A stretch of DNA of 64,000 nt, taken from NCBI RefSeq assembly GCF_000243335.1, contig NZ_JH597773.1:3342156-3406155 (forward strand), in the 5' to 3' direction. The position numbers and the translations under genes are program-made. The notes beneath the pieces are model-generated. The model worked only from the letters and a program-made list of their open reading frames with translations, did not search any database and was not told the origin of the DNA. Source of the DNA: Leptonema illini DSM 21528 (lineage in GTDB: Bacteria > Spirochaetota > Leptospiria > Leptospirales > Leptonemataceae). Positions 5,247 to 62,303 of this stretch are shown piece by piece (position 1 is the first letter of the stretch; every line of letters begins with the position of its first letter).

Positions 5247-6677
5247 TCAAGCGGCTTCTGCGCCTTCACGCAGATCCACGGGTACGAAGCCTTCGCCGGC
5301 GTTCCTGATCGTCATGATGAGGTTATACACCATCACGAAGAAACCGGTAAGGAAGGACAGACCGCCGATGGCGCGGATCAGTCGATACGGAGCAAGCTGC
5401 TGCACGATTTCGATCCAGTCGGGATACATCAGACCGCCTGTAGCCGGATCGATGGCTCTCCACATAAGACCTTCGGCAACGCCCGATACCCACATCGAAA
5501 CGACATACAGAAGAATGCCGATCGTAGCCGTCCAGAAATGCACCTCGGCCAGCTTCTCACTGTACAGTTTGGCGTTCCACAGACGCGGAACCAGATAGTA
5601 CAGAGCGGCGAAACAGATACCGCCAACCCAGCCAAGAGCACCGCCGTGAACGTGTCCGATCGTCCAGTCGGTGTTATGCGAGATGACGTTGACCGAACGG
5701 ATGGACATCATCGGTCCTTCGAACGTCGACATACCGTAGAAGGTGATGCCTACGAGGATGAACTTCAGAGTGGCGTCCGTGCGGAGCTTTTCTTTCGACT
5801 GAGTCAGCGTGAGGAAGCCGTTCAGCATACCGCCCCAGGAGGGAGCGATCAGCATGATCGAGAACAGCATACCGAGCGACTGGGCCCAGTTCGGAATCGG
5901 AGAATAGAGCAGGTGGTGAGGACCGGCCCAGATGTAGATGAAAATCAACGACCAGAAGTGAATGATCGAGATTCGGTGGCTGAAAATCGGCAGCTTCGTA
6001 TGCTTCGGCAGATAGTAGTACATCATACCGAGAATCGGAGTTGTGAGGAAGAAAGCCACGGCGTTATGCCCATACCACCACTGAATGCTCGCATCCGTCG
6101 CTCCGGAATAAACGGAGTAGGACTTGAACAGACCGGAAGGAATGGAGATGTTGTTAACGACGTACAGCACTGTGATGGTGACAATGGTTGCAATGAAGAA
6201 CCAGATCGCCACATACATGTGCTTCTCCTGACGGTTCTTGATCGTCATGAAGAAGTTCGTTGCCATCGTAAGCCACCATACGGCGACGAGAAGGTCGAGA
6301 GGCCACTCAAGTTCGGCGTATTCCTTGGACTGTGTGAAACCAGCGAGAAGCGTGAGAACCGCTCCAACGATGGTTACGATGAACATCCAGAAATGCGCAC
6401 GGGAAAGGGCCTTGGACCACATCGGCGTCTTGAGCAGACGTGGAAACGAATAGTACATCGATGCGAAGATCATACTGCCGGTAAAACCGAAGATGATTCC
6501 GTTCGTATGAACCGGTCGCAGACGTCCGAACGTGAGCCAGGGACCCAGGTTGAGCTCGGGGTAGACCATCTGGAAGGCAATGATAACGCCAATCAGAAGA
6601 GAGGCGCCTGCCCAGACCAGAGCGGAGATTACCCACCAGCGTACAATCTGGTTATCGTAATCGATCCTGTTTTGCAT
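5247..6677 (-). CDS. ccoN: cbb3 cytochrome c oxidase catalytic subunit CcoN
   Basis: 476 residues, about 12 membrane spans. Haem-copper oxidase landmarks are visible: RPVHTNGIIFGF in helix 2, WYGHNAVAFF (CuB ligand), WAGPHHLLYSP (two CuB His), and IGHVHGGALGWVGG (haem ligands). It reduces oxygen to water at high affinity and pumps protons. First gene of the leftward cco operon; ATG with AGGAG 7 nt upstream. The 5' region lies between this gene and the tRNA at 6767-6840. I saw no convincing FNR-type palindrome there. Confidence 0.95.
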   Translation of the reverse strand: MQNRIDYDNQIVRWWVISALVWAGASLLIGVIIAFQMVYPELNLGPWLTFGRLRPVHTNGIIFGFTGSMIFASMYYSFPRLLKTPMWSKALSRAHFWMFIVTIVGAVLTLLAGFTQSKEYAELEWPLDLLVAVWWLTMATNFFMTIKNRQEKHMYVAIWFFIATIVTITVLYVVNNISIPSGLFKSYSVYSGATDASIQWWYGHNAVAFFLTTPILGMMYYYLPKHTKLPIFSHRISIIHFWSLIFIYIWAGPHHLLYSPIPNWAQSLGMLFSIMLIAPSWGGMLNGFLTLTQSKEKLRTDATLKFILVGITFYGMSTFEGPMMSIRSVNVISHNTDWTIGHVHGGALGWVGGICFAALYYLVPRLWNAKLYSEKLAEVHFWTATIGILLYVVSMWVSGVAEGLMWRAIDPATGGLMYPDWIEIVQQLAPYRLIRAIGGLSFLTGFFVMVYNLIMTIRNAGEGFVPVDLREGAEAA

Positions 6678-6766
6678 GATTTGCTCCTGTCAGTTTTTAC
6701 GGAGCTCCGAAAACAAAAGGGACCGCCGGGGCGATGCCTCAGTTTACAGGAATCGGAATCTCCGTT

Positions 6767-6840
6767 TGGGCCCTCCAGGACTCGAACCTGGGACCAAGAG
6801 ATTATGAGTCTCCTGCTCTAACCGACTGAGCTAAGGGCCC
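6767..6840 (-). tRNA. tRNA with CAU anticodon, probably tRNA-Ile2 (lysidine type)
   Basis: A 74-nt cloverleaf on the minus strand. Acceptor stem GGGCCCT/AGGGCCC, D-arm TAGCTCAGTCGGTTAGAG, anticodon loop CTCATAA (anticodon CAU) and T-arm with GGTTCGAGTCC. The discriminator is A and CCA is not encoded. The D and anticodon arms (AGCAGG-GACTCATAATC) look more like tRNA-Ile2(CAU), which reads AUA after TilS modification, than elongator Met, but Met cannot be excluded by eye. Confidence 0.9.
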
Positions 6841-7345
6841 CCGAACAGGGCAGCGACGCTGCTTCAAGCCAGTTTTCGTCGCCGAGGGGCAGAAGGCAAT
6901 TCATTTCAGCCTCTGCCATCCTGTTCTTCCATAAACAATACACGTCAGCGACACTAAATCGCTTCATCGCAATATGACGATCTTTCCCGCTTTTACCGTC
7001 ATCTTTCAATCAACTTATGCCGAAAAACGGCCGGTCAATCACTATTTACAAAAACCGATATCAAAGCACGGATTTGCAAACACTGAGCCTACACCACGGA
7101 GCAAACGGCCTTTTCGCTGACAAATACTTTGATAAATTTACTAAAACAGAGATGATAACAAGAACGCTTCTCAAAACACTCCGAACATAGAATGGTTCTA
7201 AGTCCGCCAGTGCTGAACCTTTTTACAGGGTGCAACGCTCCTCCTGCCCGCAGAAAGCATGCTTGACGGTCTCTGTGGGGCCGGCATCGTACGAACCTGA
7301 ACGGACTTTGATCGTCTGTAAGAAGGAATCCACCTGGAGGAACCT
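6841..7345. other. 505-bp intergenic stretch, AT-rich, no gene seen
   Basis: Lies between the leftward tRNA and the rightward lipoprotein gene, so it must hold both promoters. AT-rich from about 6990 to 7200. Short ORFs on either strand have no family resemblance or ribosome binding site. A small hairpin-prone GCCGAAAAACGGC occurs at about 7019. No promoter is convincing enough to call. Confidence 0.5.
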
Positions 7346-7816
7346 ATGTTGCAAAGGATTATGATTGCCGGAATGGCGGCGCTGCTTGCCACGTGTGCAT
7401 CCGTCGACAGCGTGAACGGCGGCGAACAGCTTGAAGGATGGAAGCGCGAAGGAGAGATCGACGTTTATTACGTAAAAACACCTGCACGGGCAAGCGAACT
7501 TGCCATCAACAAAGGCGATCCGGCCATGATGAAAACAACATGTATGGAATCCTCGAAGCTGCAAGCCCTGGACAACATCATCCGCAAGATGGTCGGCGAA
7601 TCGTTAGAAGCGCAGTCGGGCATGCTCGACGGGCAGACGACCAATTACGCCATCACCTCGCTGCGAAACGGACAGATCAAAGGCGTTCAGCAAAAGGAAT
7701 GCGCTCCGACCGGAGAAGGCGGATCATGGCAGAACTGCGAATGCGTGCACTATGTCTCGGGCCCGAATCTCAAAAAACAGATTCAGATCGAGGTAACGAA
7801 GGCGGCGGAGCGTTAA
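7346..7816 (+). CDS. secreted or lipoprotein of unknown function
   Basis: 156 residues with a hydrophobic N-terminal signal (about 5-17) ending LLATC, a relaxed spirochaetal lipobox. The rest is soluble and ends with a Cys-containing segment (KECAPTGEGGSWQNCECVHYV). ATG chosen because GGAGG lies 5 nt upstream. Followed by a hairpin terminator shared with nth. No family recognised; probably envelope located. Confidence 0.75.
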   Translation: MLQRIMIAGMAALLATCASVDSVNGGEQLEGWKREGEIDVYYVKTPARASELAINKGDPAMMKTTCMESSKLQALDNIIRKMVGESLEAQSGMLDGQTTNYAITSLRNGQIKGVQQKECAPTGEGGSWQNCECVHYVSGPNLKKQIQIEVTKAAER

Positions 7817-7863
7817 CAGAGCGACCAAGCATCCGATCCAGCATTCATGACGAGCAAGAATGC

Positions 7864-8553
7864 TCAGTCCTGATGCAATGAAGGCCTGCCTTTCTTCGGG
7901 GCAGGCCTTTTAGTATCTACAGTTGATGACGGACATACATCTGAAAGCACACATTCGGTGCAGCGGGGTCGTCGGGCCACACAGGCGGAACGACCGAGGA
8001 AGATCAGATAAAGAGAAAGATCCATCCAGTATTTCGGCGGAACCTTTTGCATCAGATCCTTCTCCATGCGCACCGCATCCTTCGCATGACTGAGGCCGAG
8101 CAACCGGCTCAGGCGAAGCACATGCGTATCGACGACAAAGCCGCTTGAGATTCCGTATAGTTCTTGTAGAACGACGTTGGCCGTTTTACGACCCACTCCG
8201 GGCATCTTTACGAGCTCTTCGATCGTCTGCGGTACTTTGCCGCCATGCTCGTTTACGAGAGCCCTGCAGAAGCCCTGTATATTGCGAGCTTTGTTACGGT
8301 AAAAGCCCGTTGAATGGATGAGCCTCTCGACCTCGGCGACAGGTGCCTCTGCAAGCGAGCGGGGATCAGGGAAAGCCTTGAAAAGTTCGGGCGTGACGCG
8401 ATTCACCATCTCATCCGTGCATTGAGCAGAGAGGATGACGGCAACGCAAAGCTGGTAGGGTTTTTGATAGTGAAGGGGGCAGGAAACGGGGCCGAACTTG
8501 CGCTTCAGGCGCCCGTATATCTCGTCTATATAAAGAGCTTCTTTCTTGCTCAC
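7864..8553 (-). CDS. nth: endonuclease III (base-excision DNA glycosylase/AP lyase)
   Basis: 229 residues, usual length. Helix-hairpin-helix LVKMPGVGRKTANVVL at about 115-129 with the catalytic Lys at about 123, catalytic Asp in VDTHV at about 142, and a 4Fe-4S motif C-x6-C-x2-C-x5-C at 191-207. It removes oxidised pyrimidines from DNA. Its ATG overlaps the rpmB stop (ATGA), suggesting translational coupling. The C-terminus is extended and Lys/Pro-rich, and runs through the terminator hairpin. Confidence 0.96.
   Translation of the reverse strand: MSKKEALYIDEIYGRLKRKFGPVSCPLHYQKPYQLCVAVILSAQCTDEMVNRVTPELFKAFPDPRSLAEAPVAEVERLIHSTGFYRNKARNIQGFCRALVNEHGGKVPQTIEELVKMPGVGRKTANVVLQELYGISSGFVVDTHVLRLSRLLGLSHAKDAVRMEKDLMQKVPPKYWMDLSLYLIFLGRSACVARRPRCTECVLSDVCPSSTVDTKRPAPKKGRPSLHQD
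7881..7912. terminator. bidirectional hairpin between 7346 gene and nth
   Basis: A 10-bp perfect stem AAGGCCTGCC/GGCAGGCCTT with a 9-nt loop and short T/A tracts on both sides, between converging genes. The final codons of nth (minus strand) are read through the hairpin. Confidence 0.75.
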
Positions 8554-8798
8554 TTCGGAGCTTTGAGAACAGAGAGATCCTGGCCGTATTTTTTGATCAG
8601 AGACTTTGCGCCCTTCTTGTTCAGCGTTTTCAGCATACGAGCCGAAACACGCAGACGGACGGTGCGATTCTCGTCAGCGAGAAATACCTTCTTCTCGACA
8701 AGGTTCACCTTGAATTTGCGCTTCGTTTTGCGGTGCGAATGGGAGATCGTATTGCCGCTCGACGTCTTTTTTCCGGAAATATCACACTGACGGGCCAT
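8550..8798 (-). CDS. rpmB: 50S ribosomal protein L28
   Basis: 82 residues starting MARQCDISGKK, matching bL28 over its whole length (RVSARMLKTLNKKG in the second half). The ORF continues upstream to a GTG 9 nt earlier, but family alignment favours ATG at 8798. The Shine-Dalgarno is weak. Overlaps nth by 4 nt. Structural protein of the large ribosomal subunit. Confidence 0.95.
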   Translation of the reverse strand: MARQCDISGKKTSSGNTISHSHRKTKRKFKVNLVEKKVFLADENRTVRLRVSARMLKTLNKKGAKSLIKKYGQDLSVLKAPK

Positions 8799-8913
8799 AA
8801 AGGCCACGTACAGGGAACACTGTACCCGGTCAATCCGCTTTCCTCACTTCCGGGCGAGAGGACCGGAGGCACCCGGTTTTCTTCGCGAAACTCAGAAATA
8901 CGCCGGGTACGAA

Positions 8914-8940
8914 TTGACAGTCAGAATGGGCATGTACTAT
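8914..8940 (+). promoter_or_regulatory. candidate sigma-70 promoter for the 8951 gene
   Basis: TTGACA at 8914-8919 and TACTAT at 8935-8940 with a 15-nt spacer (or TATAGC with 18). The downstream ATG at 8951 would be only a few nucleotides from the start of transcription, implying a leaderless message. Confidence 0.45.
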
Positions 8941-8950
8941 AGCCCTCTGC

Positions 8951-9805
8951 ATGCTGTATCTTTCTGATATATGCGGCGAACTGCCCGATGAAGAACGAAG
9001 ACGCCTCGAACGTCGACTGGGCATCCTCCTTCGTCATCCGGAACGCAAGGCCGAGACATGTCGCTCTCTAATAGAGAAGATTCGAACCGATTTCAGGCCC
9101 GAGGCCTGCGAATGGCTTGGAATCAGTATTGAGAAGGGCGACCCCGTTCCGCGCACCGAACTCAGCTCCGCGGAACGAGAGGTTCTCGAACGCTCGCCGG
9201 TGATCCAGCTCGAAGGCCAGTTCTACATGCCGGCCGAATTCCTCGAAGCCTGGAAGACCGATACCTCGCCGACATCACAGCCTTTTCTGTTTCAGACGCT
9301 GCACCGGCTCAGCCTGGCCGAGAAGCGTGCCTTTCTCGTCTGGCTGAAAAGGCATACGGATCGTGAGGCCCTGGCACACCTGCCCTTCCAGTCGGTGGGC
9401 ATGCGGCTGTACCTGCTCATCCGACAGCTGCGAAGGGACTGGATCGAGCCCCCCGATTCGGCATCGCCCGAGGGCGACGGCCCCTGGAAGCTCGAAGACA
9501 TCTTCGGCGAGTTATGGCAGAAGCCTCCTCTCTACTGGTATGACCGCGAGGTGCTCCCTTTTTATCAGTGTCTTCAAGACCTTGAAAAAGAGCTGATGCG
9601 CAAGCATAAGAAAACGCCGGCCTCGTTGCCGCTCATTCAGCATGTGTATCACGGCCTGCGAACGGGTAGCTACTGCCTTGTCGAAGAAGAGCAGGGCTAC
9701 GGCCAGAAGCTATTGCCCGTGCTCTACCGAACCCGCGATTTTGCCGTGAATCCGACGGCTGCGATTATCGGACGGGCTCCACTTCAGGAAGATCGTCTGT
9801 TCTGA
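8951..9805 (+). CDS. hypothetical soluble protein, unknown function
   Basis: 284 residues, charged, no signal peptide or membrane span. No domain recognised. Features: a Glu/Arg-rich start (PDEERRRLERRLG), a Trp-rich middle (WLKRH, WIEPP, GPWKLEDIFGELW, YWYDREVLPFY) and a C-terminal part ending in LYRTRDFAVNP. No Shine-Dalgarno precedes ATG 8951, but a good promoter lies just upstream. Its 3' end overlaps the stop of the converging DUF423 gene. Codon use looks like its neighbours, so I think it is real. Confidence 0.75.
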   Translation: MLYLSDICGELPDEERRRLERRLGILLRHPERKAETCRSLIEKIRTDFRPEACEWLGISIEKGDPVPRTELSSAEREVLERSPVIQLEGQFYMPAEFLEAWKTDTSPTSQPFLFQTLHRLSLAEKRAFLVWLKRHTDREALAHLPFQSVGMRLYLLIRQLRRDWIEPPDSASPEGDGPWKLEDIFGELWQKPPLYWYDREVLPFYQCLQDLEKELMRKHKKTPASLPLIQHVYHGLRTGSYCLVEEEQGYGQKLLPVLYRTRDFAVNPTAAIIGRAPLQEDRLF

Positions 9806-39107: not shown

Positions 39108-40310
39108 ATGCAAACGTTAACTGAAACGCTCGACTATGAGCTTGACCAGGGACAGCGTGAATTCCTTGCCTCGTTCCGCCGCTTTTTAGAGGCCGAGATC
39201 GAGCCTTCCGTTCTTGATATCGAGAAGACGGGCATTCCGCGATCGCATTTCGCCGCCCTCGGCCGCTTCGGATACAATGGCCTCCTGCATGAAGAACGAT
39301 TCGGCGGATCGGATGCCGATCACGTAACGACGATGCTCGCCGAGATCGAGCTTGCCGCCGTCTGCGGTTCGACCTTCTTCAGCGTCGGAGCGTCGGCGGG
39401 GTTATACGGCATCCCCCTTCGATTTCACGGAACGGAAGCGCAGAAAGAACGGCTGCTTCCGGCGCTGATTAAAGGCGAACTGATCGGCTGCCTCTCTGTT
39501 ACCGAACCGCAGGCCGGCTCGGACGTGCAGGCCATTGAAAGCGCGGCGGTGAATCACAACGGAACGATCTTGCTTAAAGGACGCAAGACCTATATTACGA
39601 ACGCACCGATGGCCGACCGCAGCCTCGTTCTGGCCCGCTACCATGACGGCAACCGTGACCGTGGCCTGACGCTTTTCGACGTAGATCTGAACGCAGAGGG
39701 CGTACATCGCAGCCGTCCGTTCGAGAAGATGGGGCTCCGCGGATCTAAGACCGGCGAGTTAACCTTCGACGACGTTTCGCTCACAGAAGATTCCATCGTC
39801 GGAACGCCCGGCCGCGGATTTCTCGCCGTCATGCAGGTCTTTGACGTCGAACGGCTTTCGATGGCCGCTTATGCGACGGGCGTTATGCGATCCTGCCTTG
39901 AAGATTCCCTGGCCTTTTCTCGCAGCCGCAAGGCCTTCGGCAAGCCGCTGTATAAACATCAGAGCGTCGCCTTCATGCTTGCCGATATGAAGACCGAACT
40001 TGATGCGACGATGCTGTATCTGCTTGAGACGGCCTATCTGTTTGATCGTGCGGGCGGCAAATCACGCCTCATCCACAACGGAGCGGTCGTTGATCTGAGC
40101 GCCCGGGCATCGGCCTTAAAGATACAGGCATCTGAGGCCGGCCGCAAAGTCGCTAACCTTGCCGTACAGATTCACGGCGGCGCCGGATACATGGAAGAGT
40201 ACAGAGTATGTAGACTGTATCGAGATGTGCGCCTTGCCGAGATCGGCGGAGGCACGACAGAGATTCAAAAGCAGATCGTCGCCCGTGCCGAAGCAAAGCG
40301 GGTGAGCTGA
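39108..40310 (+). CDS. acyl-CoA dehydrogenase, second copy
   Basis: 400 residues with the same architecture (SVTEPQAGSDVQAIES, YITNAPMADRSLVLARY, VQIHGGAGYMEEYRVCRLYRDVRLAEIGGGTTEIQKQIV). Sequence differs substantially from the first, so substrate range probably differs. ATG 39108 with GGAGG 4 nt upstream. The terminator hairpin at 40374-40405 lies just beyond. Confidence 0.9.
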   Translation: MQTLTETLDYELDQGQREFLASFRRFLEAEIEPSVLDIEKTGIPRSHFAALGRFGYNGLLHEERFGGSDADHVTTMLAEIELAAVCGSTFFSVGASAGLYGIPLRFHGTEAQKERLLPALIKGELIGCLSVTEPQAGSDVQAIESAAVNHNGTILLKGRKTYITNAPMADRSLVLARYHDGNRDRGLTLFDVDLNAEGVHRSRPFEKMGLRGSKTGELTFDDVSLTEDSIVGTPGRGFLAVMQVFDVERLSMAAYATGVMRSCLEDSLAFSRSRKAFGKPLYKHQSVAFMLADMKTELDATMLYLLETAYLFDRAGGKSRLIHNGAVVDLSARASALKIQASEAGRKVANLAVQIHGGAGYMEEYRVCRLYRDVRLAEIGGGTTEIQKQIVARAEAKRVS

Positions 40311-53129: not shown

Positions 53130-54112
53130 CCATCTTTCTCGAACATCGTCGCCTGCTCTTCTCCGTCGCTTATCGGATGATGGGCAGCGCGACCGATGCC
53201 GAAGACATCGTGCAGGAAAGTTATCTGCGATGGAGGAAGGCCTCGTCCAATCAAAAGATTCGCGATGCGAAGTCGCTACTCGTTTCGATTACGACCCGAC
53301 TCTGCATCGACGAATGGAAGAAGGCTCGCCGCAAACGCGAGGTTTATATCGGTCCTTTTCTTCCCGAGCCCGTTCCGACGGCGATGCTACATAGTGAGCT
53401 GCACGATGATCGCATCGATCATGCCTTCTTGCTTCTGCTCGAGCAGTTGAAGCCGGTGGAGCGAGCGATCTTTGTATTAAAAGAGGCCTTCGACTATTCG
53501 TATGCAGAAATCGCCGGCATCGTTCAAAAATCCGAGGCGGCATGCCGGCAGATATTCAGCAGGGCGCGGCGTTCCATTGACGTGAACAAGGCGCCCGTTT
53601 CGATTACGCGCACACAGGAGTTGCTTCTTCAGCGGTATCTGACGGCGTTAAGCACCGCCGACGCGAAGCTGCTGCTCTCTGTGATCGCCGAAGACGCACA
53701 GATCCATTCCGACGGCGGCGGCGTGGCCGGAGCGGCCCGGCGCGTCGTTCACGGACGCATTCCGGTGGCGGCGCTTCTGCTCGGCGTCACGCGCAAGGGC
53801 GGATCGGGCGAGGTCTACACGGCAAGCGTCAATGGAATGCCGGCTATCGTCATCTACCGAGACGGCAAACCCGTCCTTGTGCAGTGTCTTGCTATGGATG
53901 CGCAGATACGGACGCTTTTCGGCATCCTCAATCCTGGAAAGTTAGCCGCCTTCAAAGATCGAGAACGACTTATACGCGAGGGCGTGCTGTCGCCGGTTCG
54001 ATTCACGATAGTGATGCAACTGCGCTGGCTCTGGAACCGGTGGATCGGCCGACACTTCACCGTTCCGATGCTGCGTCGTCTCGAAACGGAGACTTCATAT
54101 TCACGCTCATGA
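53096..54112 (+). CDS. ECF41-type sigma factor with SnoaL-like C-terminal domain
   Basis: 338 residues. Sigma region 2 (LLFSVAYRMMGSATDAEDIVQESYLRW), region 4 (VERAIFVLKEAFDYSYAEIAGIV ... ACRQIFSRARRSI), then a NTF2/SnoaL-type domain. ECF41 hallmarks are visible: the linker GPFLPEPVP and DGGG in IHSDGGGVAGAARR. In ECF41 the C-terminal domain controls activity in place of an anti-sigma factor. Its usual partner is a cotranscribed oxidoreductase, as here. The 3' end overlaps the converging thioesterase by 56 bp. Confidence 0.9.
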   Translation: MAAGTITDSELTIFLEHRRLLFSVAYRMMGSATDAEDIVQESYLRWRKASSNQKIRDAKSLLVSITTRLCIDEWKKARRKREVYIGPFLPEPVPTAMLHSELHDDRIDHAFLLLLEQLKPVERAIFVLKEAFDYSYAEIAGIVQKSEAACRQIFSRARRSIDVNKAPVSITRTQELLLQRYLTALSTADAKLLLSVIAEDAQIHSDGGGVAGAARRVVHGRIPVAALLLGVTRKGGSGEVYTASVNGMPAIVIYRDGKPVLVQCLAMDAQIRTLFGILNPGKLAAFKDRERLIREGVLSPVRFTIVMQLRWLWNRWIGRHFTVPMLRRLETETSYSRS

Positions 54113-54878
54113 TGCGCTCCAGCTGCTCATCCGAGAAGCGATAGGGGCGCATGCGCTTCAGATCCATGAAGAGTCCGTGCACAAGCGAGCGCAAGAGCAA
54201 TCGACGCGAAGACTTCGAAAAGAGATCGTGCCGGAACGCAAGGCGTCCTTTTTCGCCCCGCTCATAAACGGTGGCGATGACAAGCTCGTCTCGAAACGTC
54301 ATCGGCGCAAAATAGTCGATCTCGGCTCTGTACACGACGGGGCCGATCCCCTGCTCCTGTAGCGAATCGATATCAAGGCCGGTCGCATAGCCCGATCGAA
54401 TCCGGGCATCGTCAAGATAATACTGGATCGTATGCAATCCGACTCTTGCCTCGGGCGTCATATGAGGCCAGGCGACGTCGACAGAGTGATAGACCGCATG
54501 CGGATAATCCTCAAGGCGATAATAGATCTGCGGCGCCTCGGCGTCTCGCAGATAGAATCGGCCCTGTGTGACCAGAGCTGAATCTGATGCGCGCAGGATC
54601 TCCTGTGAGATAAAGCGTCCTCGCTCATCGGTTAACAGCTCTGTCGTTACGATCGCCTCATCGGGATATTTCAGTTCTTTACGAAATTCAAGCTCGCACC
54701 GAGCTATTTCGAAGTCGCCGGGAAGCCGTTCATCGGTCTGTTTCAGAAGCTCAAACGCTTCTATTCGGGCCTCTTCGAAATAGCTCTGGTATGTGCCATT
54801 GTTTACATGTCCGTTCACGTCCAGGTCGGATCGCCGAACGCGAAGCGTCGTCTGGGTCTTTGTGCTGAGGGCAGTCAT
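54057..54878 (-). CDS. double-hotdog acyl-CoA/acyl-ACP thioesterase-like protein
   Basis: 273 residues with two hotdog domains: first RVRRSDLDVNGHVNNGTYQSYFEEARIEAF, second VGLHTIQYYLDDARIRSGYA and IDYFAPMTFRDELVIATVYERG. Hydrolyses acyl thioesters. ATG 54878 with GGAGG 5 nt upstream. Divergent from the TetR gene; two palindromic operators lie in the 175-bp gap and probably control both. Confidence 0.85.
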   Translation of the reverse strand: MTALSTKTQTTLRVRRSDLDVNGHVNNGTYQSYFEEARIEAFELLKQTDERLPGDFEIARCELEFRKELKYPDEAIVTTELLTDERGRFISQEILRASDSALVTQGRFYLRDAEAPQIYYRLEDYPHAVYHSVDVAWPHMTPEARVGLHTIQYYLDDARIRSGYATGLDIDSLQEQGIGPVVYRAEIDYFAPMTFRDELVIATVYERGEKGRLAFRHDLFSKSSRRLLLRSLVHGLFMDLKRMRPYRFSDEQLERIMSVNMKSPFRDDAASER

Positions 54879-54926
54879 TACATCCTCCATGCCGGTTTTT
54901 CGGATCCCGAGATCAAGGCCAGGGCT

Positions 54927-54964
54927 CCAGTATCAGGTAGACAGATCGGTCTACCTGATACTGG
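54927..54964. promoter_or_regulatory. TetR operator 1 (perfect 16-bp arms)
   Basis: Perfect inverted repeat with 6-nt centre AGATCG; core GGTAGACAGATCGGTCTACC at 54936-54955. Shares the half-site GGTAGAC/GTCTACC with operator 2. Confidence 0.85.
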
Positions 54965-54972
54965 TAATATAG

Positions 54973-55002
54973 TTTCTGGTAGACAATTCTGTCTACCAGA
55001 AA
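54973..55002. promoter_or_regulatory. TetR operator 2
   Basis: Perfect 13-bp arms around ATTC; core GGTAGACAATTCTGTCTACC at 54978-54997, 42 bp (about four helical turns) from operator 1. A TAATAT box lies between the two. Confidence 0.85.
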
Positions 55003-55053
55003 AACCTGAAATGCAAAGCTATCCGGCCCGAACAGGCCTCTTTCGAAGAGAAT

Positions 55054-55647
55054 ATGAGCGGCATCGAAATAGAAGAACCGGCCAGGGATCGCATATTAAG
55101 AGCGGCCAGTCGTCTGTTTTATGAGCAGGGGTATCCGAACACGGGCATCAACGAGATCCTCAGCGAAGCCGGCGCCTTCAAGAAAAGCCTCTATATTCAC
55201 TTCCCGTCTAAAACAGAGCTCGGGAAGGCATACGTGCAAGAGCAGGAGGCCTTTATTCTCGGGACGATCGAGCGCATCATCAAGCGTCACGATCGCTACG
55301 CCGAATTTATCGCTTCGTGGATGCGTGTGGTCCGACGTGGAATCAAGACCTCGTACAGATACGGATGCCCGCTTGCGAACCTGAGCAATCAGACGCACGA
55401 CGAGCCCGAGCTCGCATTCACGGTAAGGCAGGCGCTTGATCGCTGGACGACGCTCTTTCGCACCGAGCTGCTTCGCATGAGCTGGCCTCATCCGGTTAAC
55501 GAAGATCTGACGGCGGACTTTGCCGAGCGGATACTCTTCTACTACCAGGGAGCCATGCAGCTGTATGGCATGTCGGGCGATATCAAATACATCAAACGCC
55601 TTGAGCATGAGCTGCTGCGTATAGCGGAGGATGTCAGGGGATCATAG
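55054..55647 (+). CDS. TetR-family regulator controlling divergent thioesterase (inferred)
   Basis: 197 residues: helix-turn-helix ILRAASRLFYEQGYPNTGINEILSEAGAFKKSLYIHFPSKTELG, C-terminal helical domain with CPLANLSNQTHDE, as in TetR_C-type regulators of the YxaF/LmrA-like group. Two perfect palindromes upstream. Its 3' end overlaps the converging GNAT gene by 14 bp. Confidence 0.88.
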   Translation: MSGIEIEEPARDRILRAASRLFYEQGYPNTGINEILSEAGAFKKSLYIHFPSKTELGKAYVQEQEAFILGTIERIIKRHDRYAEFIASWMRVVRRGIKTSYRYGCPLANLSNQTHDEPELAFTVRQALDRWTTLFRTELLRMSWPHPVNEDLTADFAERILFYYQGAMQLYGMSGDIKYIKRLEHELLRIAEDVRGS

Positions 55648-56155
55648 TCATTGGCACATTCGCCTGCTGAAGATCTCTCGTCAAAACCACCATGTCCCGA
55701 CAGAGCAGGCCGTTCTCAACGATGGGCTCTGCGTAGTTGTCTGTAAAGAAGTCCTTTATGATATGATCCATTCGAAAGCCCAATTTCTGATAGAGACTCA
55801 GCTGGGTAAGGCTGGAGTTACCCGTCCCTATAACAATAGACCGGCTTCCGTTTTTCTGCGCCCATTCGATGGCGAATCGAATCAATAACGAGCCGATGCC
55901 CTTTCCCTGCTGTTCGGGCAGAACGGCGACATTCTTGATCTCGACGACATCGGATGCCGTAAAGGAAAGCACGATTGCCGCAATGACTCGATCTTCATGC
56001 ATGCCGACAAAAGTGTGCCCTTCTCTGATGTACCGTTCGATCATCGCGCGCGAGGGATCGGCAAGCAGAAACAGGTCGAAAAGCGAGGGGTCGGAGTATT
56101 CTTTCGTTTCGATGATTTTCATGCTGTTACATGCAACCGAACCATCAGGCGTCAT
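55634..56155 (-). CDS. GNAT-family N-acetyltransferase
   Basis: 173 residues: acetyl-CoA-binding motif VAVLPEQQGKGIGSLLIRFAIEWA, C-terminal LSLYQKLGFRMDHIIKDFF. Substrate unknown. ATG 56155 has GAGG 7 nt upstream and overlaps the cyclase-like gene by 11 nt; a later ATG at 56122 is also possible. Confidence 0.88.
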   Translation of the reverse strand: MTPDGSVACNSMKIIETKEYSDPSLFDLFLLADPSRAMIERYIREGHTFVGMHEDRVIAAIVLSFTASDVVEIKNVAVLPEQQGKGIGSLLIRFAIEWAQKNGSRSIVIGTGNSSLTQLSLYQKLGFRMDHIIKDFFTDNYAEPIVENGLLCRDMVVLTRDLQQANVPMTMIP

Positions 56156-57011
56156 GTAAAACCTCTTCTGCTCTTTTCGTGATACAGGCGCTCAAGAAAT
56201 CGCTGCGAACCGTCGTTATAAGATCGGGAATACGTCGTTCGATGCGCCAGGTGCCGTCGCTCTGCCGTTTGCTTTTCAGAAGATCGAGGGCCCTGTTCAT
56301 CGACGAATCACTGCGTCCCTCGCGGCGCAGCAGCCAGAGGATCTCAAGAAAATCGGAGTGGTACATATTTGGAAAGGTTAACTGGTCCGCGCCTCCGGCG
56401 AGAAGCCTTGCAGGATCACTCGAACTGTAACAGACCTCATGCAGCAGAATGAAATCGATACATCGCTGTATAAGTTGCTTGACGTTTTTCTTACGTCGAC
56501 GCTCTGCAAGAAACGAAAGCCCCTTTAAGAGCTTTGTTACGCCCCAGTAGCACGTATGCGCTCCGTAGCAGCTTTTATTGCGAAAATACGGAAAAGCGGA
56601 CGGCGTCTTGAAATCGCCGTCGTCAAAGCGCTGGTACTGCGCGAAGAAAGCAATGACGCGATCGTCATAATCCGACTCAAGGCCGAAATAGCCATGCAGA
56701 TACAGCATATTGCCGTTGAGACAGGGGATGGGAAAATGCGACTTCCCGATCGAATACACGCCGCTTTCGCGATCAAAGAAATGGTCGGTGATCGCCTGAA
56801 GAGGCCGGCGCAACTCGGGCAGAGCGGGATCGCACTCGATGTCGGCAAGCAAGATCAGCGTCCAGAGCGTCGATTTATAGTTCGGAGCATAATGCTTGAG
56901 CTCAGGATAATACCTGTCTCCAGGACTGAGCTGGTTCCAGCATCCGTCCTCGTCTTGAAGCGAGAGGATTCGCTCTACAAGTTCAGATCGACGATCGCTC
57001 AGCGCAGACAC
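56145..57011 (-). CDS. terpenoid-cyclase/prenyltransferase-like alpha-toroid protein
   Basis: About 288 residues made of helical pairs with QW-like repeats (LQDEDGCWNQLSPG, RQSDGTWRIERR) as in squalene/hopene cyclase and protein prenyltransferase toroids. Only about half the usual cyclase length, and no DxDD motif is seen, so activity is open. Start GTG 57011 chosen because AGGAG lies 6 nt upstream; a TTG at 57056 is also in frame. Between the CocE-type hydrolase and GNAT genes. Confidence 0.7.
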   Translation of the reverse strand: MSALSDRRSELVERILSLQDEDGCWNQLSPGDRYYPELKHYAPNYKSTLWTLILLADIECDPALPELRRPLQAITDHFFDRESGVYSIGKSHFPIPCLNGNMLYLHGYFGLESDYDDRVIAFFAQYQRFDDGDFKTPSAFPYFRNKSCYGAHTCYWGVTKLLKGLSFLAERRRKKNVKQLIQRCIDFILLHEVCYSSSDPARLLAGGADQLTFPNMYHSDFLEILWLLRREGRSDSSMNRALDLLKSKRQSDGTWRIERRIPDLITTVRSDFLSACITKRAEEVLHDA

Positions 57012-57061
57012 GACGGGCTCCTGAATGACAGGATAACGCCCGCCCGCCTGTTGCAAGGATT

Positions 57062-58816
57062 TTATTCCGTTCTGCCTGCTCCTGCCGAAGGGATAACAGG
57101 AATCAGCAGATGCGAATCGAACGGCCCTCCTGTGTGAATGATCGTGCGTCCCCTCCTGCCGGGAACCCTGCGCTGAAAGGGAGGCGCTGGAATAATCTCG
57201 CGCCCCGCAATGAGTAGCAACAAACCCTCTCCTTTCTTGAAGAACGTGGCGCTCGGGAGCATGGCGATCTCGACCGGCACGATCTCGTCAGGGCGAAGCG
57301 GTTGATGCGAAGTGCCGCTGAGGACGGGATGAAACGGCGTCGACTGATTCAGATCAAGCTCGCGGCGACTCAGTCGCAGACATCCGCGGCTGACGCCGTC
57401 ATGAATCAATCCCACCGATCCGTTGAAATAAACGATGCGACCGCGCGCATCGATCTTATGAAGAACGACGAAAAGATCGCCGTCGTCGGTCCCTCTCGAT
57501 TCCACAAAGAGCTTTAGAGCGAAGTATCCGCTGAGCTCCGTATCGACGTCAAATGTGTGACGAAGGCGTAGCGTCTCATTCCGGGAATCAAAGCCGATCT
57601 CCTGTCGGGTCGTCGGCGCCGTCGGAGTTAAAGCACTATTTTCGAAGTAAAGGGGCCTGTACTGCGTGCGCGCCAGAGGCCATTCGTTTTCGAATCGTCT
57701 CTCGTGAATGGTCTCGCGATTTGAGCGCACCTCAAGAGTTACCCTCGGTCTGCTCTCGAATCGATCCTTTTTGCCTTTCAAGAAACAGTCCATAAAATCC
57801 AGCGTCAGCTGCTTCACCTCGTCGGAGTAATAGGCGACCCACTTTCCCGTTCGGTGTGTGTATAACCATTTCTGCTTCGACCGGGCCCGCTCAAAGGCTC
57901 GCAGAGTGCCCATCGTATGCAGGCTGTGATCCGAAAAAGAGGCGCCGACGAGCATGGGCAGCTCGATGCTTTCCAGATCGGGAATCTTTGCCTTCCAGTT
58001 CTCATCAAGGAAGGGATGCATTTCGGTCCATGATAGCGGAAGGCCGCCCTCCGTTTCGATGATGGCTTGCTCACCGCCGCGAATCGTTTCGCTCATCTCA
58101 GTCTGCCACCAGAAAACGGGGAATCCGACCTCCTGAATGCCGCCGTTCATGAGCAGATCGCGATAGGGATCGCTGATGCCCTCCCACGGAGCGATACACT
58201 TCAGAGCCGCCGGCGGAGTCGACGCCGTTTTCGAGGCCACATAGTATTGCGAGATGGCGAGAAAGCTCACTCCGCTTAACCCCACGTTGCCGTCACACCA
58301 GGATTGAGCGGCGACCCACTCGATAGCCTCGCCGTAACAGCGACTCTGATGCTTTGAGAAGACGCTCGGCGGCCCTTCGCTCGATGCATAACCGGGCAGA
58401 TTCAGATTGACGACGGCGTAGGCATGTCGCACCCAGAAGTCCGGATCGGGCGCCTCCCATCCGGTTAACGTTGAGAAGACGGGACGTCCGCCGCATTGAC
58501 GGATCATCCGGTACTGCTTCGGTGGTCCTGAGAGCGGCGTCTTTTTCAAGGCAGGAATCAGGCTGTTATCGTAGGGATGGGCACACATCACGACGGGCAC
58601 CCTTTCGCCGCGCGCAGCGGCAGCTTTCGAACGAAACACATTTGCCGTGAGAAAGAAGCCCTCGCTCATCGGTATGCGTACATCATACTCGCAGAGGATA
58701 TCGGCATCGGGCTCGGTCAGCACAGCGGCCGGACGAAAGAGCTGTCCTCTTTGCAGGGCCCCTGCAAGGATCGGCAGTAAAGAACGCATCAGAATGCGGA
58801 ACTCATTGAACTTCAT
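57062..58816 (-). CDS. CocE/NonD-family alpha/beta hydrolase
   Basis: 584 residues: X-Pro dipeptidyl-peptidase-like catalytic domain with nucleophile GLSGVSF at about 183 (CDGNVGLSGVSFLA), acid/His region SFSDHSLHTMG and LYTHRTGKWV, then a beta jelly-roll domain. Hydrolyses esters or peptides; the substrate is unknown. Leftward with the AraC regulator upstream, and 51 bp before the cyclase-like gene (GTG). Confidence 0.88.
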   Translation of the reverse strand: MKFNEFRILMRSLLPILAGALQRGQLFRPAAVLTEPDADILCEYDVRIPMSEGFFLTANVFRSKAAAARGERVPVVMCAHPYDNSLIPALKKTPLSGPPKQYRMIRQCGGRPVFSTLTGWEAPDPDFWVRHAYAVVNLNLPGYASSEGPPSVFSKHQSRCYGEAIEWVAAQSWCDGNVGLSGVSFLAISQYYVASKTASTPPAALKCIAPWEGISDPYRDLLMNGGIQEVGFPVFWWQTEMSETIRGGEQAIIETEGGLPLSWTEMHPFLDENWKAKIPDLESIELPMLVGASFSDHSLHTMGTLRAFERARSKQKWLYTHRTGKWVAYYSDEVKQLTLDFMDCFLKGKKDRFESRPRVTLEVRSNRETIHERRFENEWPLARTQYRPLYFENSALTPTAPTTRQEIGFDSRNETLRLRHTFDVDTELSGYFALKLFVESRGTDDGDLFVVLHKIDARGRIVYFNGSVGLIHDGVSRGCLRLSRRELDLNQSTPFHPVLSGTSHQPLRPDEIVPVEIAMLPSATFFKKGEGLLLLIAGREIIPAPPFQRRVPGRRGRTIIHTGGPFDSHLLIPVIPSAGAGRTE

Positions 58817-58920
58817 GCGTTCAGTATGCTCCGATTTTCAAACGACATCGACCGAATGGATACAGACGGACGAAAAAAACATACGGACGTGAGCCATCCG
58901 AATAGAAACGAACGGTTCGT

Positions 58921-59991
58921 TCAGGGAGAGCCCTGTCGAAATTGCGTCGGCGTCTTTCCCGTCTCTTTTAAAAAGGCCGAGTTAAAAGAAGACTTTGAAT
59001 TGAAGCCAGACTCATAGGCTATTGAGAGCACTGTCTGATCGGGGTGATCGAGCAGCATACGCTTTGCATCGGCGATGCGATATCGATTGAGAAAGGCATG
59101 AAAACTGATGCCCAGATAGCCGTTAAAGAACTCGCTCAGCTGCTGCGGACGCAGACCGAGCCGCGAGGCGACGGAAGGCATATCGAGATCCTCTTCTTTA
59201 TAGAGATGCTCGTCTTCCATGAGCCGGCGCAGGCTTGCCTCGATATGATCGAGATCGAGATTTTTCAAGACGCTGTAACGATACTTCTCTGCCCGAGCGG
59301 CAAGCACAAGGTCGAAAAAGAAATGCGGATTGCGGCGGCTCAGGCCATGCATCAGGATGACGAAAAAGGCGACGATGAAAAGAACAATCTCGGTCAACTG
59401 GATCGACCGAAGCAGAACGGAAAGCACGGTTAACACACCGAGAAAGACGGTCGAGCATCCGATCAGCAGAATCAGACGCAGGGCCGAATCGGTAAGCCAT
59501 TTTTCGCGCGGAGAGCTTTTCAAAACGAGGCCGACGGCGTAAAGGGCGCAGGCGGCGCTGTAGCTCGCTCCGAGAAGAAAGATGAGCACGCCGACATCCG
59601 CCCCTTCCAACCGCAGAGTACGAACGGACTGAATCACCGCAATCTTCTCATCTGGAGACTGCAGATAAAGTGGAATGAGCGCCACGACGGCCAGCAGAAC
59701 GGGCACGGCATAGACCACGTCGGAGGGCGTCGGACGACGACGGTTCTCAAGGGCCATCTTACAATAAACGAGCACAAGCGGACCAAGCGCCCATGTAAAC
59801 GGCATCTCAAGCCTGAAAAGCCACAGCCGCTCTTCAAGGCCGCCATAAAAGAGAAAGTGGCCCTGCAGCAGGATAACGGCAAAAGAGATCTGGATGCCCG
59901 AATAGATATAGGTCTTCGCGCTGCGCTCGCGCACAAGCAGCTCTGAGAAGCCGAGAATCAAGGCAAGGGACGATGCGATAAGCAGGATCAC
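58921..59991 (-). CDS. membrane-anchored AraC-family regulator
   Basis: 356 residues: about seven membrane spans (1-225), then an AraC helix-turn-helix domain (MPSVASRLGLRPQQLSEFFNGYLGISFHAFLNRYRIADAKRMLL ... SSFNSAFLKETGKTPTQFR). The integral sensor domain suggests a membrane or small-molecule signal. GTG start without clear ribosome binding site. Upstream of the hydrolase gene on the same strand. Confidence 0.9.
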   Translation of the reverse strand: MILLIASSLALILGFSELLVRERSAKTYIYSGIQISFAVILLQGHFLFYGGLEERLWLFRLEMPFTWALGPLVLVYCKMALENRRRPTPSDVVYAVPVLLAVVALIPLYLQSPDEKIAVIQSVRTLRLEGADVGVLIFLLGASYSAACALYAVGLVLKSSPREKWLTDSALRLILLIGCSTVFLGVLTVLSVLLRSIQLTEIVLFIVAFFVILMHGLSRRNPHFFFDLVLAARAEKYRYSVLKNLDLDHIEASLRRLMEDEHLYKEEDLDMPSVASRLGLRPQQLSEFFNGYLGISFHAFLNRYRIADAKRMLLDHPDQTVLSIAYESGFNSKSSFNSAFLKETGKTPTQFRQGSP

Positions 59992-60140
59992 GGTTTTACA
60001 GCAAACAGCTTACGGACCGGGCCTTTCAACTAATTTGCGGCTGAGGCATTTCGAGTACAGAGAAAAACATCCGAACAAAGGCTTGCATTCCGGGGAATCG
60101 AGTGTCAGACAGGTTCTATCAGCCGGTTGGGGGATCACCG

Positions 60141-62303
60141 ATGAGCGAAATACATTTCCGAACCTGTCCGCTTTGCGAGGCGATGTGCGGATTGCGATTT
60201 GAGATCGACGAAGGCAGGATCATATCGATTCGAGGCGACAGCGAGAATGCTTTCAGCAGAGGTCACATCTGTCCGAAAGGCCCCGAGCTAAAAAACCTGC
60301 ACGAAGATCCCGATCGCCTGAAACGACCGATCAAGCGAGTCGGCGATCAGTGGGTACCGGTTTCGTGGACCGAGGCGCTCTCTGATATCGCCCGGCGTGT
60401 CGTCGAGATTCAGCAGCGATCCGGCCACGATGCAGTGGCCTTTTATGCGGGCAATCCGACGGTGCATAACTACGGCTCCATGCTGTTCGGCGATCGCTTC
60501 TCTAAGGCCCTGAAAACGAAGAATCGCTTCTCGGCGACCTCCGTCGATCAGCTACCCCATCAGCTTCTTTCTTATCTGATGTTCGGACATCAGCTGATGA
60601 TTCCCATCCCCGATATCGATCATACGAACTATTTTCTGATCATCGGAGGTAACCCCTTCGCCTCAAACGGCAGCCTGATGACGGTGCCCGACGTCAAAAA
60701 GCGGCTCAAGGCCATCCAGGAAAGAGGCGGCCGATACGTCGTCATTGATCCGCGGCGCACGGAAACGGCAGAGCATGCAAGCGAACATGTCTTTATTCGC
60801 CCGGGAACGGACGCCTTTCTTCTTCTGGCATTTGTTAACACCCTTTTCCAGAAAAATCTGATCAGGAAGACCGGTCTCTATACCGAAAACGATCTGAGCA
60901 CTCTTAAAACCCTGGCCGCCGAGTTTGCGCTCGATCGAGTGGAAAAGGTGACGGGAGTTCCCGCATCCACGATAGAAAGGTTAGTCGACGAGTTCACACA
61001 GGCAAAGGGCGCCGTCTGCTATGGAAGGGTCGGAGTTTCGATGCAGGCCTTCGGATCAATCTGCCAGTGGCTGATCAACTGCATCAATATTCTGACAGGC
61101 AACATAGACGTAAGAGGCGGTGCGATGTTCACGCTGCCCGCCGTCGACATGGTCGATCCGAATTCGGCGATGGGCGGCGCACGAGGAAGCTTCAACCGAT
61201 ATCGCTCCCGCGTGCGAGCGTTACCCGAATTCAGCGAGGAGCTGCCCGTATCGGTTCTTGCCGAGGAGATTCTCACGCCGGGCGAAGGCCAGGTCAGGGC
61301 TCTTTTCACGACGGCCGGTAATCCCGTACTCTCCACGCCGAACGGTCGACAGCTCGAAAAGGCGATCTCACAACTCGAGCTGATGGTAAGCTTCGATATT
61401 TATGTGAACGAGACGACGCGACATGCGCATTATATACTGCCTCCAACGTCGACCCTGGAGCATGATCATTACGATCTCATCTTCAACGTCTTCGCCGTCA
61501 GGAATACGGCGTATTACTCCAGGCCAATCTTCGAGCCCGAGGAAGGCAGTCTTCACGACTATGAGATCTTCGCCGATCTCACGAAACGTATTGAGCTTGT
61601 GCGCTCGAACAAAGCGCTTCCCGATAATCTCGTGAAAACGAGGATGACTCCTGCCGCCTTTATCGATCATGCGTTGAAGGCCGGTCCTTACGGAGAAAGC
61701 GGACCGAGGGCCATGGGCATGAGCCTTGAGCTTTTACAGAAGAGTCCGCACGGAGTCGATCTCGGTCCGCTTGAGCCCTGTCTTCCTGCAAGGTTATGCA
61801 CGGATGATAAAAAGATACGGCTTGTTCCCGACGAGCTGCTCGCCGATTTCGATCGCTTGAAAAAATCATTTCAGGCGGCCGCTTTATCGCAGGACACCTC
61901 GGAGCAGGACGCCTCGCTTCTGCTAATTGGAAGAAGGCATCTGCGCAACAACAACTCGTGGATGCATAACCTTCCGAAGCTGATGGCCGGCAAGAATCGA
62001 TGCACGGTGATGATCCATCCCGACGACGCTCAGGCGCTCGGCATTCACGAAGAAGACGCCGTTACCGTCGAGTCGGATGTAGCGACAATCACCCTGCCCG
62101 CTGAAATCTCGGACGGCATCATGAAAGGCGTCGTGAGCATTCCTCACGGCTTCGGACATCATCGCCCCGGTACGGCGCTAAACGTCGCCACGAAATTTCC
62201 GGGGGCGAGCATCAACGACCTCACAAGCGATCGTCAGCTCGACGAATTCTCGGGAAATGCCGCCTTCAGCGCTATCAAGGTGAGGCTTTCGAGAGGAGGT
62301 TAG
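60141..62303 (+). CDS. molybdopterin-dependent oxidoreductase (DMSO-reductase superfamily)
   Basis: 720 residues. 4Fe-4S motif C9-x2-C12-x3-C16-x27-C44 (CPLCEAMCGL ... GHICPKG), then bis-MGD domains (FYAGNPTVHNYGS; FLIIGGNPFASNGS; VIDPRRTETAEHASEHVFI) and a C-terminal molybdopterin-dinucleotide-binding domain (RHLRNNNSWMHNLPKLMAG ... HGFGHHRPG). No Tat signal, so cytoplasmic. Substrate unknown. ATG 60141 chosen; a GTG at 60102 is in frame. No ferredoxin or membrane partner is adjacent. Confidence 0.93.
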   Translation: MSEIHFRTCPLCEAMCGLRFEIDEGRIISIRGDSENAFSRGHICPKGPELKNLHEDPDRLKRPIKRVGDQWVPVSWTEALSDIARRVVEIQQRSGHDAVAFYAGNPTVHNYGSMLFGDRFSKALKTKNRFSATSVDQLPHQLLSYLMFGHQLMIPIPDIDHTNYFLIIGGNPFASNGSLMTVPDVKKRLKAIQERGGRYVVIDPRRTETAEHASEHVFIRPGTDAFLLLAFVNTLFQKNLIRKTGLYTENDLSTLKTLAAEFALDRVEKVTGVPASTIERLVDEFTQAKGAVCYGRVGVSMQAFGSICQWLINCINILTGNIDVRGGAMFTLPAVDMVDPNSAMGGARGSFNRYRSRVRALPEFSEELPVSVLAEEILTPGEGQVRALFTTAGNPVLSTPNGRQLEKAISQLELMVSFDIYVNETTRHAHYILPPTSTLEHDHYDLIFNVFAVRNTAYYSRPIFEPEEGSLHDYEIFADLTKRIELVRSNKALPDNLVKTRMTPAAFIDHALKAGPYGESGPRAMGMSLELLQKSPHGVDLGPLEPCLPARLCTDDKKIRLVPDELLADFDRLKKSFQAAALSQDTSEQDASLLLIGRRHLRNNNSWMHNLPKLMAGKNRCTVMIHPDDAQALGIHEEDAVTVESDVATITLPAEISDGIMKGVVSIPHGFGHHRPGTALNVATKFPGASINDLTSDRQLDEFSGNAAFSAIKVRLSRGG

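Follow-up and report, generated by a model that had tools for sequence, protein, structure and literature searches.

A predicted single-toroid protein with invariant cysteine and histidine residues, and its gene neighbours, in Leptonema illini

The alpha-alpha toroid is a fold found in class II terpene cyclases (squalene-hopene cyclase, MstE, drimenyl diphosphate synthase), in N-acylglucosamine and cellobiose 2-epimerases, and in the thioester domain of complement and alpha-2-macroglobulin. The alpha toroids of the protein prenyltransferase beta subunit and of LanC-type cyclases hold zinc, and in the thioester domain the Gln of the CGEQ motif forms the thioester. Here, we have analyzed a stretch of 64,000 nucleotides from Leptonema illini DSM 21528 (contig NZ_JH597773.1, positions 3,342,156 to 3,406,155; hereafter the window). 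The genome has three contigs that add up to 4,522,760 bases, and the first of them measures 4,325,094. In the window, a gene for a small toroid protein lies between genes for a CocE/NonD-type hydrolase and a GNAT acetyltransferase. We tentatively propose, giving the proposal slightly less than even weight, that the three genes form an operon around a stand-alone, horizontally acquired toroid enzyme with a Cys/His site, which would modify or detoxify a small molecule.

The toroid protein and its conserved residues

The toroid protein is given 288 amino acids, because its gene has a likely GTG start at 57011 with an AGGAG six bases upstream, near which the starts of several close relatives also fall. 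Residues are numbered here on a version of 303 amino acids read from the upstream TTG at 57056. The protein is small, has no hydrophobic membrane segments and carries three QW-like motifs (QDEDGCW at 34-40, QRFDDGDF at 142-149 and QSDGTW at 265-270). No Pfam family matched it at E ≤ 1, and NCBIfam gave a single row at chance level (E 0.077). A sequence search of the PDB likewise gave chance-level matches only (E 0.047), and a profile of 70 aligned rows of the family gave none at E ≤ 1.

Relatives were collected in one genome_contigs scan, which gave 225 of them; the best 80 loci were retained, with as much as 7 kb of flank to either side (full 7-kb flanks in 38). The alignment takes in 69 of these 80 loci, leaving out two fragments (L064, L073), three proteins longer than 370 amino acids (L085, L094, L101) and six loci without a matching open reading frame (ORF) in the gene calls (L072, L074, L080, L081, L106, L109). 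The tree divides into two clades of 42 (short) and 28 (long) rows, each supported at 100/100 and with long branches between them. The short clade occurs in Bacteroidota, Chloroflexota, Bacillota, Spirochaetota, Patescibacteria and others, and the family as a whole in bacteria and archaea, Lokiarchaeota included, a spread that contaminated bins can inflate. In the tree, a weakly supported group (90/60) joins the window protein to Bacillota, a Spirochaetaceae bin and a Sericytochromatia bin, and within the same family of genomes there are distant toroids only, in 5 of 21 other genomes at 24-25% identity. This grouping, together with the lack of a close toroid in those 21 genomes, suggests that the gene was gained horizontally. 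The plasmid and phage collections held no match to the toroid.

Eight residues (C112, C163, H167, C169, H206, S212, D145 and K175) are kept in all 70 aligned rows; D235 is kept in 68, and the short clade adds W171 (42/42) and C209 (41/42). According to the helix limits of the model described below, C112 stands at the opening of helix 111-124, H167 and C169 ahead of helix 170-181, H206 after the end of helix 190-205 and D235 ahead of helix 236-245. In an alternating toroid the three invariant Cys and two invariant His, and D235 with them, would then lie at or beside the N termini of every other, inner helix and so line one rim of the toroid cavity. The original prediction had stated that a DxDD motif is missing. 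A literal one does occur (DYDD, residues 129-132, where helix 129-141 begins, past the loop after helix 111-124), but it is not conserved: at those columns it is confined to the window row among the 70 (DxDD occurs anywhere in 7 of them), and we therefore do not take it as a catalytic signature.

The AlphaFold model of the window protein (pLDDT 91.1, pTM 0.90) has ten helices of at least 10 residues, which we read as five predicted hairpins. Foldseek returned five matches to this model at E ≤ 0.001, four of which are entries for MstE, a type II terpene cyclase, the fifth being a squalene-hopene cyclase of 345 residues. VIA-align put a cellobiose 2-epimerase at the top rank (Z 14.0, rmsd 4.6, 241 aligned residues) and gave Z 12.8 to squalene-hopene cyclase 3sqc (rmsd 4.5, 231 aligned). 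In the model of L075 (pLDDT 93.1), a relative belonging to the longer clade, a further hairpin at the N terminus brings the number to six, and drimenyl diphosphate synthase was the best match in both programs (Foldseek E 6.6e-6; VIA-align Z 14.7, rmsd 4.4, 250 aligned, with complement domains close behind). The short clade would thus have lost one hairpin, a gain in the long clade being the alternative. Besides, SQHop_cyclase_C was matched at E ≤ 0.01 by 23 of the 70 family members (best 1.8e-9) and Prenyltrans (PF00432) weakly by 8, the window protein being in neither group. The models give good support to the terpenoid-cyclase fold class but not to any one nearest function. The features first read from the letters of the DNA, namely QW-like repeats, a length of about 288 residues and a terpenoid-like scaffold, were borne out by the motifs, the start codon and the structure comparison; "half-size" has to be understood as one small toroid, most close relatives being of about the same length.

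Taking these observations together, we hypothesize, with considerable reserve, that the proteins may represent an unnamed enzyme family on the terpenoid-cyclase fold, in which carbocation chemistry has been dropped for a Cys3-His2, probably metal-dependent reaction, and whose short clade, lacking one hairpin (a five-hairpin toroid), has been passing from one phylum to another as a lone gene. Most likely the Cys and His residues would coordinate a metal, zinc for example, or provide a nucleophilic thiol; the enzyme may then work on a substrate that is small or carries a thiol, and would not start a carbocation cascade. If the Cys/His site is catalytic, its chemistry is one that we did not find described for the toroid fold among the literature matches listed, where we also recognised no published description of the toroid family or of the gene set.

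The gene cluster and its neighbourhood

All four leftward ORFs of the original prediction (AraC, CocE, toroid and GNAT) were found in the ORF calls of the window at their predicted positions, and the features of the locus are as follows.

58921..59991, minus strand: AraC-family regulator, 356 amino acids, GTG start (hydropathy scan; HTH_18 at residues 275-353)
58884..58900, minus strand: terminator-like hairpin, then T7, between the AraC and CocE genes (terminator scan and RNA fold)
57062..58816, minus strand: CocE/NonD-type S15 hydrolase, 584 amino acids, probable triad S184, D296, H321
56145..57011, minus strand: single alpha-alpha toroid protein of the terpenoid-cyclase fold class, 288 amino acids from GTG 57011
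55634..56155, minus strand: GNAT acetyltransferase, 173 amino acids

The CocE and toroid genes are 50 nt apart, and the 3' end of the toroid gene overlaps the start of the GNAT gene by 11 nt. The AraC and hydrolase genes are separated by 104 nt that hold the hairpin and seven T; the hairpin folds at -8.9 kcal/mol (z -2.7), a value equalled by 2 of 200 shuffles, and the region 54800-60200 has 9 terminator-like sites vs 4.9 in shuffles. Because of the 50-nt gap with its AGGAG, the 11-nt overlap, and the hairpin and T7 after AraC, the CocE, toroid and GNAT genes probably form one operon, with AraC as a separate unit. The small gaps and overlaps originally described for four genes thus hold for the junctions of three, while AraC stands off.

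The proposed families of the three neighbours (AraC, CocE-type hydrolase and GNAT) agree with family matches above the cut-offs. AraC has a hydrophobic N-terminal half, with five hydrophobic segments within the first 214 residues in the hydropathy scan, and a C-terminal HTH_18 domain (PF12833, 80.2 bits, cut-off 33.6). It is one of 19 HTH_18 matches in its own genome, and AraC-matching proteins are common (40 of 61 genomes at E ≤ 1e-10, up to 25 per genome). At 58907-58921, where the AraC gene has its stop codon, lies a palindrome whose 7-nt arms match perfectly (AACGAACCGTTCGTT on the minus strand), and the terminator-like hairpin follows closely. We rejected the palindrome as a repeated operator, as it occurs at a single place in the window, the only other listed match, at 40077, having 3 mismatches.

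The hydrolase matches Peptidase_S15 and PepX_C (PF02129, PF08530) above the cut-offs and CocE_NonD (TIGR00976) at 201 bits, above a cut-off of 66.3. Its candidate triad was read from a motif alignment, the Ser-Asp-His motif set being common to CocE/NonD family hydrolases (TIGR00976), and its Asp and His are common to two of three aligned plasmid homologues. It is 36-40% identical to plasmid-borne proteins of Acidisoma, Variovorax, Rhizorhabdus and Novosphingobium, but in both plasmid records examined the neighbouring genes differ from those of the window. At E ≤ 1e-10 such a protein occurs in 10 of 392 genomes of the phylum, its own included, and within the same family in its own genome only. 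GNAT matches Acetyltransf_1 (PF00583) at 61 bits, above a cut-off of 20.7, and has relatives in 10 other genomes of the same family. In the proposed scheme, an ester or amide would be split by the hydrolase, and GNAT would transfer an acetyl group to an amine on that compound or one related to it; by these steps a small molecule would be modified or detoxified, and AraC would perhaps control the operon.

The surroundings of the toroid relatives differ from those in the window. In blastp searches at E ≤ 1e-8 against the 1081 ORFs of the 80 toroid loci, the toroid gave 75 matches and AraC one (30% identity), and the hydrolase and GNAT gave none. At E ≤ 0.01, there was one weak relative of CocE (L049, 6.5 kb from the toroid, E 6e-6), one of GNAT (L044, 3.4 kb, E 2e-5), and nine matches of AraC, spread over eight loci and coming no nearer than 1.5 kb. 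Of the 14 Spirochaetota regions around GNAT, AraC or CocE relatives, not one has a pair of the four genes at E ≤ 1e-8. In the set of eight host genomes of toroid relatives, only that of L030 has CocE relatives (two), neither of them in the 7 kb around the toroid. The Pfam scan of 123 of the 133 listed ORFs adjoining close-clade toroids gave 186 families, none in more than three ORFs. Acetyltransf_1 and Abhydrolase_6 occurred in 3 of the 123 each, and among the control ORFs more than 3 kb away (80 of 90 listed), which include one Peptidase_S15 protein, Abhydrolase_6 occurred in 2, numbers too few to judge enrichment. We therefore reject a conserved cluster, the partner genes not being neighbours in the toroid loci or Spirochaetota regions examined.

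Gene-neighbourhood conservation had been named in the original prediction as the check on its suggestion that these proteins jointly modify a lipid or small metabolite, and this check failed. The conserved pathway is thus unsupported; what stands is that CocE, toroid and GNAT look co-transcribed, which makes joint action possible. The three-gene set has been seen so far in this genome only. It was probably assembled locally, since a CocE of this type occurs in its own genome only, the toroids elsewhere in the family are distant and GNAT has relatives in ten others.

Some neighbours of the toroid gene recur elsewhere in the family. In five Lokiarchaeal loci (L084, L098, L100, L102, L108), related ORFs directly follow it, that of L084, the only one scanned, being a DUF3795 protein; this ORF is among the few recurrent neighbours in the long clade. 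Related PadR-type ORFs are found upstream of long-clade toroids, adjoining them in L083 and L088 and one ORF away in L098 and L100, and GyrI-like ORFs lie downstream in L083, L088 and L100 and somewhere in the locus in L085 (family scan of L083 alone). In three Patescibacteria (L052, L056, L067), an ORF of 315-339 amino acids follows the toroid gene directly or, in L056, one ORF on, without a Pfam match in the one scanned (L052); the same loci have a leftward ORF that reads like an alpha/beta hydrolase. An integron-cassette origin, which the mixed neighbours had suggested, was provisionally rejected, as the direct-repeat search of 10 of 44 close-clade loci, judged by eye, gave no attC-like array. 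Locus L059 has four copies of a 34-nt repeat (5537-9443, 74-100% identity), each ending about 30-60 nt before an ORF, the toroid's included, which we read as probable promoters, a repeat tied to gene insertion being the alternative.

Beyond GNAT in the window, divergent genes for a thioesterase (54057-54890, 4HBT) and a TetR regulator (55054-55647) have two inverted repeats between them, at 54927-54942/54949-54964 and 54974-54985/54990-55001. Their arms are perfect and share GGTAGAC...GTCTACC, and from their sequence the repeats within 54927-55001 have the look of putative paired TetR operators.

Alternative explanations

A doubtful but still considerable possibility is that toroid, hydrolase and GNAT are chance neighbours that arrived singly and share a transcript but no common pathway. 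Such an origin fits the lack of a conserved neighbourhood in the loci examined and the different G+C of the three genes (CocE 0.569, toroid 0.525, GNAT 0.506). The distributions of CocE and of GNAT also differ, which points to different gene histories. On the other hand, genes that overlap by 11 nt, or follow after 50 nt with a good ribosome-binding site, have the look of co-translation, and bacterial operons often join functionally linked genes.

It is unlikely that the toroid is non-catalytic and serves as a scaffold or as a sensor that binds a ligand, with a structural metal bound by its conserved Cys and His. The gene does stand alone, and 14 of 43 close-clade loci with a toroid call have a cluster of AraC-like ORFs (labelled from sequence), although only 2 such ORFs lie within 2.2 kb of it. 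However, D145, K175 and S212 are also invariant, which would be more than a structural site needs.

We consider it improbable that the protein is a sugar epimerase or isomerase like the N-acylglucosamine 2-epimerases, in which H167 and H206 would act as the acid/base pair. VIA-align does favor cellobiose 2-epimerases over 3sqc for the window model, by 1.2 Z, but Foldseek ranks terpene cyclases first for it, as both programs do for the long-clade model. The relatives match SQHop and Prenyltrans profiles, with no epimerase profile among the 7 Pfam families matched by the 70 rows, and the three invariant Cys would be left unexplained.

A class II terpene cyclase with DYDD as general acid, to which the fold, the QW-like motifs and the literal DxDD would point, is very improbable given that the DxDD is limited to one row, at the start of a helix, that the window protein has no SQHop match and its genome none at E ≤ 0.001, and that there is one toroid only.

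The proposal of an operon built around a Cys/His toroid enzyme must itself be set against results that speak against it. The VIA-align ranking for the window model places sugar 2-epimerases above terpene cyclases (14.0 vs 12.8). Ten more distant proteins (from 10 of 12 loci, as L006 and L022 failed the length filter) keep C112 in 9 cases, C163 in none, C169 in 2, H167 in 4 and H206 in 6, and the full Cys/His set is therefore not universal in the wider superfamily. A long terminal branch (0.68) carries the window toroid, and the fork it springs from has weak support (91/54), which limits what the tree says about the route of transfer. Without neighbour conservation, the three operon genes may share no function. 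Overall, the toroid family is a sound lead, while the cluster as a pathway is unsupported by relatives and, seen in one genome only, is of little weight by itself.

Comparison with known toroid systems

Class II terpene cyclases such as squalene-hopene cyclase, MstE and drimenyl diphosphate synthase resemble the window protein in the alpha-alpha toroid and the QW-like loop motifs, and give the best Foldseek E-values. The window protein differs from them in having one small toroid of five predicted hairpins, and an invariant Cys/His set in place of a conserved DxDD. No SQHop_cyclase profile matched it over the cut-off. A link to squalene or hopanoids was not found either, as its own genome has no SQHop_cyclase_C match at E ≤ 0.001 and 2 of 61 genomes searched have one.

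The N-acylglucosamine and cellobiose 2-epimerases resemble the predicted toroid in VIA-align (Z up to 14.0), with the order reversed in Foldseek, and the window protein has extra invariant Cys. The thioester domain of complement and alpha-2-macroglobulin is also alike in fold and in placing a Cys in the opening turn of an inner helix (PCLNGNM in the window protein). The window protein's motif is CLNG, however, with Gly at Cys+3 in 69 of 70 rows in place of the thioester-forming Gln. The prenyltransferase beta subunit and the LanC-type cyclases combine the toroid fold class with Cys and His at one rim, which is the arrangement proposed here for the window toroid.

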